Shown: in pieces, positions 6,743 to 51,638 of the stretch
How the letters are laid out: each line of letters opens with the position of its first letter
How positions within the stretch are numbered: the stretch's first letter is position 1
Assembly: GCF_018424605.1 (NCBI RefSeq)
Contig: NZ_QTKT01000003.1
Coordinates: 62,001-126,000 of the forward strand
Length of the DNA: 64,000 nt
DNA from: Marinobacter lipolyticus
GTDB taxonomy: Bacteria; Pseudomonadota; Gammaproteobacteria; Pseudomonadales; Oleiphilaceae
Direction: 5' to 3'
The notes under the pieces: model-generated
Told to the model about the DNA's origin: nothing
What the model saw: the letters and a program-made list of their open reading frames with translations, nothing else
The model's database searches: none
Program-made: the position numbers and the translations under genes

Positions 6743-6857
6743 GAAAGAGGTTGGAAGGCTGCTGTCAAAACTGTGCGGAGCCAGGGATGGCGGAGCCCAA
6801 GCGTCCCAGGGACGGGCCGAAGGAGCGTGTTTTGACAGCAGCCTTCCAACCTCTTTC
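6743..6857 (+). repeat. Long inverted repeat element, copy 3 (R orientation on plus strand)
   Basis: This is the longest perfect stem of the family: 29 bp, 6743-6771 with 6829-6857. The 57-nt core holds mini-hairpins GCCAGGGATGGC (6780-6791) and CCCAGGGACGGG (6805-6816), with GGA triplets 25 nt apart. The right arm ends 41 bp before the preferred start of the NUDIX-MBL gene, so the element probably lies in that gene's 5' leader. Confidence 0.95.
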
Positions 6858-33728: not shown

Positions 33729-33814
33729 TATCTAATTTTCTAATTGATAGTGATTAAAGATCATTTTATCGGATATTAGCACAGCACTAAAATGCCTTCA
33801 CACAATCCGGGGAG

Positions 33815-33918
33815 CTCTGAGTACACGCCTTTTCGAAACTCTGCGGAGCCATGGATGGCGTAGCCGAAGCGCCACATGGATGTGCTTGAGCGTGTTTCGG
33901 AAAGGTGTGTACTCAGGG
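33815..33918 (+). repeat. Long inverted repeat element, copy 4 (R orientation on plus strand)
   Basis: Arms 33815-33839 and 33894-33918 pair at 22 of 25 positions by Watson-Crick rules. All three exceptions (33816, 33827, 33833) become G-U wobbles if the plus strand is RNA. The 54-nt core contains mini-hairpins GCCATGGATGGC (33848-33859) and CACATGGATGTG (33873-33884). Confidence 0.93.
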
Positions 33919-33953
33919 CGAATACTGAAAGTAAGAGAGCAGGTTGGGTAAAG

Positions 33954-34033
33954 CCCTTCCGAAAATGCTCGGAGCCAAGGATGGCGCAGAGCAAGCGTAC
34001 AGGGACGTATTCACAGCGGTTTTCGGATGGGGC
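33954..34033 (+). repeat. Long inverted repeat element, copy 5 (degenerate arms, R orientation on plus strand)
   Basis: Only the inner stem is kept: TCCGAAAA (33958-33965) with TTTTCGGA (34020-34027), then a mismatch and three further pairs. The 54-nt core is well conserved, with mini-hairpins GCCAAGGATGGC (33974-33985) and TACAGGGACGTA (33998-34009). The second reads GTACAGGGACGT with its flank, one base from the CsrA SELEX consensus RUACARGGAUGU. It ends about 50 bp before the EamA start. Confidence 0.88.
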
Positions 34034-34082
34034 GCTGCCGACCGGCCCATCCACCGAAGCAGAAAAGTTTGAGGTCAACCAA

Positions 34083-43948: not shown

Positions 43949-45130
43949 ATGTCCAATGATGTTGTCATCGTATCCACCGCCCGTACGCCCCTGGCCAAAT
44001 CCTGGCGCGGCGGCCTGAACATGACCCACGGCGCCACCCTGGCCGGTCACGCCATCCAGCACGCGGTCGAGCGCTCCAAGGTCGACCCTAACGAAATCGA
44101 AGACGTGCTGATGGGCTGCGCCCTGCCGGAAGGCTCCACCGGCAACGACGTCGCGCGCATGGGCGCCATCCGCGCCGGCCTGCCAGTGACCGTTGGCGGT
44201 GCCACCATCAACCGCTTCTGCTCGTCCGGCCTGCAGGCCATCGCCATGGCAGCCCATCACATTGTCGTGGACCGGGTGCCGGTCATGGTTGCCGGCGGTG
44301 TTGAATCCATCTCCACGGTTCAGGCCAACGTGAACCAGAACTACTTCATGGAACCCTGGCTGGCGAAGAACAAGCCGGAACTCTACTGGTCCATGCTGGA
44401 CACCGCTGAGACAGTCGCCAAGCGCTACGGCATCAAGAAAGAAGACATGGACGAATACGGCGTTCGCAGCCAGAACCTGGCTGATCAGGCGCGTCAGGAC
44501 GGCAAGTTCGACGACGAGATCGTGCCCATCACCACCACCAGGGGCGTCGCCGACAAGGCCACCGGTCAGCTCAGCAGCCAGGAAGTGACCGTCAGCCAGG
44601 ACGAAGGCATCCGCCCGGGCACCAACCTGGAAGGCGTCAGCAAGATTCGCTCCGCGATGGAAGGCGGCGTGGTCACCGCCGGCAACGCCAGCCAGTTCTC
44701 CGACGGCGCCTCCGCCTGCGTACTGATGGACAGCAAAGTCGCCGAACAGCGTGGTGCCACGCCACTGGGCATCTTCCGTGGCTTTGCCGTCGCCGGTTGC
44801 GAGCCCGACGAAATGGGCATCGGCCCGGTATTCGCGGTTCCCAAACTGCTCAAGCGCGCCGGCCTGTCGGTCGACGACATCGGCCTGTGGGAACTCAACG
44901 AAGCCTTCGCCGTTCAGGTCCTCTACTGCCAGCGCAAACTGGGCATTCCGATGGACCGCCTGAACGTCAACGGCGGCGCCATCGCGGTCGGTCACCCCTA
45001 CGGCACCACCGGTTCCCGCCTGGTCGGCCACGCGCTGATCGAAGGCAAGCGCCGTGGCGTCAAATACGTCGTCGTTACCATGTGCGTTGGTACTGGTATG
45101 GGTGCCGCTGGCCTGTTTGAGGTTGCCTAA
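43949..45130 (+). CDS. Acetyl-CoA C-acyltransferase (3-ketoacyl-CoA thiolase)
   Basis: The 393-residue thiolase has the nucleophilic Cys91 ([16 protein letters not shown]), the histidine motif [14 protein letters not shown] and the C-terminal Cys in [10 protein letters not shown]. It cleaves 3-ketoacyl-CoA to acetyl-CoA and a shortened acyl-CoA, the last beta-oxidation step. It follows the FadB-like gene at 73 bp and probably belongs to the same transcript. It lacks any signal peptide and is cytoplasmic. Confidence 0.94.
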
Positions 45131-45160
45131 GACTCTGATTGCCTGAGGCTTTGGGGGGTA

Positions 45161-45270
45161 GCGCCTGTTGGGTGGGGTGTTCCGAAACACGCTGTAAACA
45201 CGTCCGTGTGCGCTTGGGCTCCGCCATCCCTGGCTCCGCACAGTTTCGGAACACCCCACCCAACAGGCGC
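45161..45270 (-). repeat. Long inverted repeat element, copy 6 (R orientation on minus strand)
   Basis: A perfect 28-bp stem pairs 45161-45188 with 45243-45270. The 54-nt core holds mini-hairpins at 45199-45210 (CACGTCCGTGTG) and 45223-45234 (GCCATCCCTGGC). On the minus strand these show CACGGACG and CAGGGATG. It is antisense in R orientation to the flanking plus-strand genes. Confidence 0.94.
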
Positions 45271-45370
45271 CCGTAGCTTCGTGCAATGGCCAACAGCTGC
45301 AGCGCTAGAACGGCTGGGCCGAGCCCAAAAAAACTCAACTTCCCAGAGCAGGCGCGCACAGGCTCGAAGC

Positions 45371-45479
45371 GCCGGGCGGGTAGCCCCTTTCAAAACTGTG
45401 CGGAGCCATGGATGGCGGAGCCCAAGCGCCCCAGGGATGGGCCGAAGGAGCGTGTTTTGAAAGGGGATGCCCGCCCGGT
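45371..45479 (+). repeat. Long inverted repeat element, copy 7 (R orientation on plus strand)
   Basis: Arms 45372-45396 and 45454-45478 pair except at 45381 (a G-U wobble in RNA) and 45383. The 57-nt core contains mini-hairpins GCCATGGATGGC (45405-45416) and CCCAGGGATGGG (45430-45441). It ends about 85 bp before the acyl-CoA dehydrogenase gene. Its core is complementary to that of copy 6, so the two could also pair with each other. Confidence 0.93.
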
Positions 45480-45564
45480 GCAACCACCCGAGCCAGAAGG
45501 CCCGGCACTACAAACTCGCAGGCTACTCACAAGTTAACCTCAGCCACCAGACAAGAGGTGCTCC

Positions 45565-46752
45565 ATGGACCTGAACTACACCCCCGAACAAGAGGCGTTC
45601 CGCGCTGAAGTTCGCCAGTTTCTTGAAGACAACCTGCCGGACGACATCCGCGAACGGGTGCAGAAACGCCTGCGCCCGGACAAGGCGATGACCGAACGCT
45701 GGCAGAAGATTCTGTTTGATCAGGGCTGGGGTGCTTCCACCTGGCCGGAAGAGTTTGGTGGGACCGGATGGGATCCGATTCAGCAGATTATCTTTGAGGA
45801 AGAGTGTGCCCTCGCCGGCGCGCCGCGCCAGCTCGACTTCGGGCTGCGCATGGTCGCACCGGTGATCATGACCTTTGGCAACGACGCTCAGAAACAGCGC
45901 TTCCTGCCGGGCATTCTCAGCGGTGAAGACTGGTGGTGCCAGGGCTATTCCGAGCCCGGCGCCGGGTCCGACCTGGCGTCGCTGCGCACCAGTGCCAAAC
46001 GCGAAGGTGACCATTACATCGTCAACGGCCAGAAAACCTGGACCACCCTGGGCCAGCATGCCGACTGGATTTTCTGTCTCGTGCGCACCAGCACCGAGGG
46101 CAAACCGCAGCAGGGCATTTCCTTCCTGCTGATCGACATGAACACCCCGGGCATCGAGGTTCGGCCCATCATCATGCTGGACGGTGAGCATGAGATTAAC
46201 GAGGTCTACTTCGATAACGTCAAAGTGCCTGCCGAGAACCTGATTGGTGAGGAAAACCAGGGCTGGACCTACGCCAAGTTCCTGCTGGGCCATGAGCGCA
46301 CCGGCCTGGCTAACGTGGGGCAGTGGAAGGCGTTGATGAAGCGGCTCAAGGCCGTGGCGCGGGAAGAGCAGGATGGTCAACGGCCGTTGATCGAGAATAC
46401 CCGCTTCCGCGACCGGCTGGCGCAGCTGGATATGGAACTGCGGGCGCTGGAGCTGACCGTGTTGCGGGTGCTGACCGACAAGCGTGGTCCCGGGCCGCAG
46501 GCGTCGATCCTGAAGATTCGCGGTACCGAGATCGGCCAGCAACTGTTCGAAATGCTGATGGAAGCCACCGGTCAGGATGCCATCGCCCATATTCCGGACG
46601 CACTGGAGCTGGACTACACCGGCCCGCGCCCCGGCTCGGTCGATGCCACACCCGCCGCCGGCGATTACTTCAACATGCGCAAGCTGTCGATCTTTGGCGG
46701 GTCCAACGAAATCCAGCGCAATATCATCGCGCAACTCGTGCTTGGTCTGTAA
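45565..46752 (+). CDS. Acyl-CoA dehydrogenase (first of a pair)
   Basis: The 395-residue flavoenzyme has the acyl-CoA dehydrogenase domains in order: N-terminal helical, beta middle (CQGYSEPGAGSDLASL) and C-terminal helical with FGGSNEIQRNIIAQLVLG. It oxidises an acyl-CoA with FAD and passes electrons to ETF. AGAGGTG lies before the ATG. It heads a second cluster with another acyl-CoA dehydrogenase 35 bp downstream and an SDR gene after that. Paired, unequal acyl-CoA dehydrogenases often act as an alpha/beta heteromer in steroid, terpene or aromatic acid side-chain degradation. Confidence 0.93.
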   Translation: MDLNYTPEQEAFRAEVRQFLEDNLPDDIRERVQKRLRPDKAMTERWQKILFDQGWGASTWPEEFGGTGWDPIQQIIFEEECALAGAPRQLDFGLRMVAPVIMTFGNDAQKQRFLPGILSGEDWWCQGYSEPGAGSDLASLRTSAKREGDHYIVNGQKTWTTLGQHADWIFCLVRTSTEGKPQQGISFLLIDMNTPGIEVRPIIMLDGEHEINEVYFDNVKVPAENLIGEENQGWTYAKFLLGHERTGLANVGQWKALMKRLKAVAREEQDGQRPLIENTRFRDRLAQLDMELRALELTVLRVLTDKRGPGPQASILKIRGTEIGQQLFEMLMEATGQDAIAHIPDALELDYTGPRPGSVDATPAAGDYFNMRKLSIFGGSNEIQRNIIAQLVLGL

Positions 46753-51528: not shown

Positions 51529-51638
51529 GGGCCTGGGTGGGCAGGGCTTCCGAAAATGCTTGGAGCCATGGATGGCGGAAAGCAAGCGTACATGGACGTA
51601 CTCGCAGCGGTTTTCGGAAGCCCTGCCCACCCAGGCCC
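51529..51638 (+). repeat. Long inverted repeat element, copy 8 (R orientation on plus strand)
   Basis: A perfect 28-bp stem pairs 51529-51556 with 51611-51638. The 54-nt core contains mini-hairpins GCCATGGATGGC (51565-51576) and TACATGGACGTA (51589-51600). It belongs to the core subtype also seen in copy 5. The right arm ends 20 bp before the TetR start codon and would be in that gene's leader if transcribed from the divergent promoter region. Confidence 0.95.

Follow-up and report, generated by a model that had tools for sequence, protein, structure and literature searches.

A divergent pair of dispersed TwoAYGGAY-like repeat elements with putative Csr/Rsm-type hairpins between thiolase and acyl-CoA dehydrogenase genes of Marinobacter

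Between a thiolase gene (NF005494, above cut-off) and an acyl-CoA dehydrogenase gene (best model pimC_large, below cut-off) of Marinobacter lipolyticus lie two inverted copies of a repeat that we read, on balance and from sequence comparison, as a high-copy, dispersed, TwoAYGGAY-like RNA element with two Csr/Rsm-type hairpins, the two copies being divergent on their folded strands. This reading carries somewhat better than even confidence; the evidence does support a conserved structure in the nucleic acid, with stems that covary. The stretch of DNA analyzed, hereafter the window, is 64,000 nt long.

Copy 1 occupies positions 45161–45270 with its folded strand (the GGA strand) on the minus strand, and copy 2 occupies 45369–45481 with its GGA strand on the plus strand, leaving a spacer of 98 nt. 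The original prediction of two facing inverted copies between these genes was thus confirmed, as was the complementarity of their cores, which form a 61-nt inverted repeat at 82%. Each copy is 110–113 nt in size and consists of a core of 54 or 57 nt between inverted 28-nt arms. In copy 1 the outer stem is formed by a 5′ arm at 45243–45270 and a 3′ arm at 45161–45188 (both read on the minus strand; 28/28 complementary, 100%), and in copy 2 by a 5′ arm at 45369–45396 and a 3′ arm at 45454–45481 (plus strand; 25/28, 89%). Sequence and alignment place the hairpin 2 loop of copy 1, CAGGGATG, of the Csr/Rsm type CANGGAYG, at 45225–45232 (minus strand) and its hairpin 1 loop, CACGGACG, at 45201–45208 (minus strand); the corresponding loops of copy 2 are CATGGATG at 45407–45414 for hairpin 2 and CAGGGATG at 45432–45439 for hairpin 1 (both plus strand). 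Folds of each copy on either strand had z-scores of −5.7 to −9.9, with none of 200 shuffles as good in any of the four folds, and the 341-nt stretch holding both copies gave a z-score of −8.3 (0/100 shuffles as good).

The repeat is present in at least 50 copies with arms of at least 18 nt in this Marinobacter genome, as determined by BLAST and palindrome extension of the loci. Further copies in the window lie at 867–978 and 2770–2880 (GGA strand minus; the latter upstream of a Bcr/CflA-type efflux gene) and at 6743–6857, 33814–33919, and 51529–51638 (GGA strand plus). The core is common to all copies and the arms are unique to each. On the GGA strand the fold is Y-shaped, a long, copy-specific stem bearing two short hairpins, with an ANGGAY hexaloop on each short stem. 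An alignment of 40 copies on this strand had 99.2% of outer-stem cells paired, with both partners of 21 of 22 pairs altered in some copies and a covariation score reached by none of 500 shuffles. Hairpin 2 was paired as drawn in only 69.4%, because GGA faces GGA in the middle of this hairpin in most copies. In 48 of the 50 own copies the two loops conform to CANGGAYG, giving at least two ANGGAX hexaloops directly on a stem, and the N of the hairpin 1 loop is free (T in 21, G in 15, C in 9, and A in 3 of 48 own copies). Four or more GGA motifs occur in 44 of 50 cores, the extra ones sitting in an internal loop. Own copies came from BLAST searches, whereas copies at named loci came from matches to an exact hairpin 2 pattern, so that their hairpin 2 conservation is biased.

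On the GGA strand the element is flanked by weakly conserved sequences, GGR immediately ahead of the 5′ arm and NNNCMCC directly behind the 3′ arm. Extension of the helix beyond the arms was rejected as the cause of this conservation (205 of 1000 permutations as low, 80 copies). No conserved promoter was found within 40 nt upstream of the copies. At some loci (L186, L218, L137, L067, L075, L133, L150, and L066) a multi-hairpin module of ∼90 nt takes the place of the hairpin 1 loop, always at the same site, and in L041 (2196–2399) and L095 (5423–5649) another module replaces the hairpin 2 loop. The latter comprises three hairpins on the GGA strand, one of which has a covarying stem capped by an ANGGAC hexaloop, and had no Rfam match at E ≤ 0.1.

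Mismatches in the arms name the strand on which the structure is kept. When a transition hits an arm, the former Watson-Crick pair reads as G.U on one of the strands but as A.C on the opposite one, and the ratio of the two therefore identifies the strand whose fold is maintained. For these counts 300 sites were reduced to 267 unique ones, of which 228 had arms of at least 18 nt and 39 were left out. Read on the GGA strand, the 228 copies had 139 G.U against 13 A.C; as orthologous copies are not independent, counts are also given for the own genome (38 against 0 in 50 copies and 1420 arm pairs, with G.U in 26 copies; p = 7e-12) and for the 84 copies with non-redundant arms (57 against 3). In other genera of the order, where 22 of 24 matches to our own model (R1, below) were used and the two weakest left out, the counts were 17 and 0. 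G.G and G.A mismatches likewise outnumbered C.C and C.U by 62 to 8, and by 15 to 1 in other genera.

The gene context of 214 copies was assigned with a home-made codon-usage gene finder (14 of the 228, at locus edges, were left out). The GGA strand ran the same way as both neighboring genes in 70 cases and opposite to both in 69, with mixed arrangements in the others (same/opposite 52, opposite/same 23); where the two genes are co-directional, then, roughly half of the copies have their GGA strand antisense to both. The copies often lie 10–60 nt from a stop codon. The G.U to A.C asymmetry was 36 to 2 in the same/same class, 27 to 2 in the opposite/opposite class, and 28 to 3 and 9 to 0 in the mixed classes. 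These counts show that the strand with the CANGGAYG loops is the folded and maintained one, whichever way the neighboring genes run, and that the other strand is not maintained. Selection on the sense mRNA strand only was rejected, since copies whose GGA strand is antisense to both genes are as asymmetric as those in the same/same class, and sense mRNA alone therefore cannot be the carrier. The asymmetry cannot separate RNA from a single-stranded DNA hairpin, as both would give the same signal.

Could such asymmetry arise in palindromes that have no function? They would have to be kept complementary by replication template switching, with a mutational bias between the strands, C to T on the GGA strand, producing the excess of G.U. 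Symmetric insertions in both arms, seen in L187 within alignment A2 and between L222 and L225, suggest arm-to-arm copying and fit this account, but G.G and G.A mismatches, which are asymmetric as well, speak against it, as do the persistence of the asymmetry in all gene orientations, the lack of a tie between element orientation and replication, and the conservation of ANGGAY loops in which N varies. We consider an absence of function decidedly unlikely.

The closest described structure is TwoAYGGAY (RF01731). The window contained no Rfam match at the gathering threshold. At a permissive threshold, RF01731 aligned over its full length (model positions 1–168 of 168) to the minus strand at copy 1 and the plus strand at copy 2, that is, to the GGA strand of each, with scores of 26.4 and 24.8 bits against a gathering cut-off of 43 and E-values of 0.059 and 0.14 that are not significant on their own. 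Among the eight permissive Rfam matches listed, microRNA-precursor models outscored TwoAYGGAY on copy 1 (MIR8670 on both strands, 39.9 of 150 bits), and lysM-Actino had a lower E-value over a stretch spanning most of copy 2; we regard these as fortuitous hits on long, perfect hairpins. In the whole genome, where 150 of 190 candidates were scored, RF01731 had 32 matches at E ≤ 1, with copy 2 listed and copy 1 absent; the best reached 42.7 bits (E = 2e-5), and none exceeded the cut-off that formal membership requires. None of 14 control genomes had a match, and within the order 31 of 145 genomes had one at E ≤ 0.01 and 13 had one over the cut-off.

A model built from 40 own copies (R1), whose training set included both copies of the pair, scored 110.8 bits on the minus strand for copy 1 and 92.3 bits on the plus strand for copy 2. 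It matched 53 of the 145 order genomes and 39 of 91 genera, a patchy distribution, and six genomes of one genus together gave 377 matches at E ≤ 1e-6, with 11 to 106 per genome. The exact core pattern was found in at least 118 stretches of genome contigs, and 80 of the 80 matches listed by name were from Marinobacter. Of the 13 RF01731 loci over the cut-off that were retrieved, R1 matched eight at E ≤ 0.1 (L227–L231, L233, L234, and L238; L231 at 0.009, L233 only at 0.09) and missed five (L232, L235, L236, L237, and L241). At the second place of AYGGAY, a pyrimidine in the motif name, the N of our copies, 48 of 50 of which carry CANGGAYG twice, is often G and sometimes A. The element is TwoAYGGAY-like and continuous with part of that family, but we stop short of counting it among the formal members.

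The present element and TwoAYGGAY (Weinberg et al., 2010, PMC2864571; PMC4333381) share an outer stem that is long and little conserved, two inner hairpins with GGA hexaloops, and a GGA/GGA internal loop resembling tandem GA, all on the same strand and along a full-length alignment. They differ in that all own matches fall below the gathering cut-off and in that the loops here are ANGGAY with any N. The high dispersed copy number, divergent pairs, and independence of orientation have no counterpart in the passages of PMC2864571 and PMC4333381 that describe TwoAYGGAY. The former judged TwoAYGGAY probably an RNA and probably not cis-regulatory, in its entry on the family; the latter, an RMfam analysis, proposed CsrA binding and noted the tandem GA where it treats the motif. 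Within the literature searched, as far as its relevant passages go, we found no tested function for TwoAYGGAY and nothing on the present repeat.

Neighboring copies follow a strong but not absolute rule of divergence on the GGA strand. Adjacent copies with good arms less than 400 nt apart were divergent in 39 of 39 cases (8 in the own genome, 17 orthologs of the locus, and 14 at other loci), and the spacer can be as short as 32 nt. Without the arm filter there were 43 divergent and 9 tandem neighbors, but eight of the latter were one element split by an insert. The exception lies in the window, where a decayed copy at 33943–34042 (plus strand, R1 68.4 bits) follows the copy at 33814–33919 in tandem at a distance of ∼23 nt; this is the sole true non-divergent case among the own-genome loci examined. 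Neighboring pairs were also divergent in 7 of 7 cases among 150 listed of the 377 R1 matches in the six genomes, and in 8 of 8 pairs less than 400 nt apart among 32 loci (23 from other genera and nine transposase loci). By eye, the RF01731 matches listed for the order included 15 pairs, 13 of them divergent, one convergent, and one tandem, with two pairs shared with the 32-locus set.

The history of the site was followed in the best 30 dehydrogenase matches among 100 genomes of the genus, one of which is the window itself. Among the 29 other thiolase-dehydrogenase gaps the pair was kept in 18 (both copies intact in 17, copy 1 interrupted by an insert in one), remnants were present in five, no element in five, and one gap ran into a contig end. 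Covariation is visible in situ: in copy 1, double changes affect 12 of 25 outer-stem pairs (15 of 18 copies used, 13 distinct), in copy 2, 11 of 24 (18 of 19 used), and the covariation scores of both copies were reached by none of 500 shuffles. Weaker measures were less clear-cut; for further pair types, 23 of 500 shuffles were as high in copy 1 and 128 of 500 in copy 2, and the number of pairs changed on both sides was as high in 3 of 500 for copy 2. In L176 and L175 the two copies of this gap have merged into a single palindrome, the outcome that a deletion between inverted copies would give.

The original prediction also proposed that the two copies, when part of the same transcript, could fold in alternative ways that govern termination, processing, or silencing between the thiolase and dehydrogenase genes. 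That both the two-hairpin fold and a long duplex can form is borne out, with a minimum free energy for 45161–45481 of −177.9 kcal/mol when folded jointly against −172.8 kcal/mol for the separate folds (−173.8 when pairing is limited to 130 nt), so that the inter-copy duplex adds ∼5 kcal/mol to the local hairpins. The 28-bp arms would be plausible RNase III substrates. The duplex is possible because any two inverted copies yield one, and a partner-specific duplex was rejected: over 22 pairs, true partners were not clearly stronger than mismatched copies (mean −138.1 against −131.6 kcal/mol, sd 25.2), with a mean partner rank of 0.40 where random is 0.5. Equivalent divergent pairs occur at unrelated loci (seven further places in the own genome, plus other loci and genera), and 10 of the 29 orthologous gaps hold remnants or nothing. 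The interval 44900–45750 contained no T-run terminator-like site, by which an intrinsic terminator was rejected, and no sigma-70-like promoter. The strand asymmetry contradicts selection on a single read-through transcript, because copy 1 would appear there on its non-maintained strand. A locus-specific switch in the beta-oxidation cluster is thus unsupported and in our estimate extremely improbable; a role specific to fatty-acid genes is not supported either, as nothing links the element's function to them.

A more serious competitor is that the repeat is a non-autonomous mobile DNA element of the REP/REPIN kind, whose GGA strand is recognized in trans as a single-stranded hairpin by a nuclease or transposase, in which case conservation of loops and stems would reflect mobility and not RNA. 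Its independence of gene orientation (single copies same/same 38, opposite/opposite 39, no bias) would be expected of such an element, and so would its independence of replication: a replication-strand orientation was rejected among 150 listed of the 377 matches (68 on the lagging template, 82 leading; p = 0.29, from dnaA and dif, with two genome lengths rounded). Patchy presence, the wide range of copies among the six genomes, and inverted pairs such as those reported for REPINs in the relevant part of PMC3116915 are also in keeping with mobility, as are two other gaps in 20 genomes where the element's orientation differs between species and half an arm sometimes remains. In the gap upstream of the Bcr/CflA-type gene, the palindromic arms of L208 and L209 enclose another core, a GGAAGCCACGGTTCC-type hairpin, and the orientation is reversed between the two species.

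A mobilizing enzyme of the REP kind does not fit, however. R1 found nothing in any of nine Y1 transposase (PF01797) loci, each with ∼1.5 kb on either side, and PF01797 had no match in the own genome (G000, ∼50 copies), in G028 (∼46 copies), or in G011, although 7 of 10 genomes have one; mobilization by RAYT was rejected on these grounds. Two inspected Y1/RAYT-like loci of other Marinobacter genomes (L249 and L251) bear a different, REP-like repeat of their own, of the GGGGTCAGA type. Resemblance to REP and REPIN sequences extends to high-copy intergenic palindromes, inverted pairs, and compensatory stem changes (PMC3116915, in its account of these features); the present element is variable outside and conserved inside, the opposite of REPINs. 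Terminal inverted repeats common to the copies, as in MITEs, are missing, since the outer arms differ from copy to copy. Plasmid and phage carriage was rejected (no blastn match with copy 1 as query), as was carriage in viral contigs (no exact core match), and retention of the pair in 18 of 29 species with covariation in situ points to maintenance after insertion. Taken together we regard purely mobile DNA as a possible but doubtful explanation.

Our preferred reading of the element as RNA draws on its loops together with the strand asymmetry, the covariation in situ, and the relation to RF01731. A high-affinity Csr/Rsm site is described in PMC4005645 as an ANGGAX hexaloop directly on a stem, with N needed but its identity immaterial, and the CANGGAYG loops fit this description. 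A csrA gene was represented by one match in each of five genomes searched. Binding of the GGA-strand RNA by a Csr/Rsm protein is, judged from these motifs, an evenly balanced proposition. The GGA strand would be transcribed by sense read-through or by antisense transcription, yielding an RNA with two closely spaced putative sites that a single CsrA dimer could grip; each transcribed copy could then serve as a minor sink for CsrA/RsmA or tether CsrA locally, shielded by the long stem, and the copies would persist as repeats, with conversion or template switching homogenizing their cores and arms. Against an RNA/CsrA reading stand the equal asymmetry of copies antisense to both genes, the lack of a promoter within 40 nt, and RF01731 scores that all lie below the cut-off; the patchy R1 distribution looks like that of a mobile repeat and counts against it as well.

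Csr/Rsm sponge sRNAs (CsrB/C, RsmX/Y/Z) are encoded by one or a few dedicated genes, unlike the present element with its many short dispersed copies and no conserved promoter within 40 nt, and they had no match in the window at the Rfam gathering level. They share with it ANGGA loops on stems, usually paired, as summarized in the pertinent part of PMC4333381. By extension, GGA-strand RNA pooled from tens to more than 100 putative double CsrA sites per genome might set the level of free CsrA, a distributed titration that we think unlikely. It would accommodate copies in both orientations and back-to-back pairs, with RNA supplied by sense and pervasive antisense transcription.

The comparison of G.U with A.C among arm mismatches offers a way to tell the constrained strand of a palindromic repeat. 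The family itself is a dense natural data set (377 matches across six genomes) in which the folded strand can be identified and divergent pairing recurs, and it makes the older proposal of CsrA binding directly testable. Were the titration reading true, a mobile-looking repeat would have been drawn into the global regulation of a large bacterial order.
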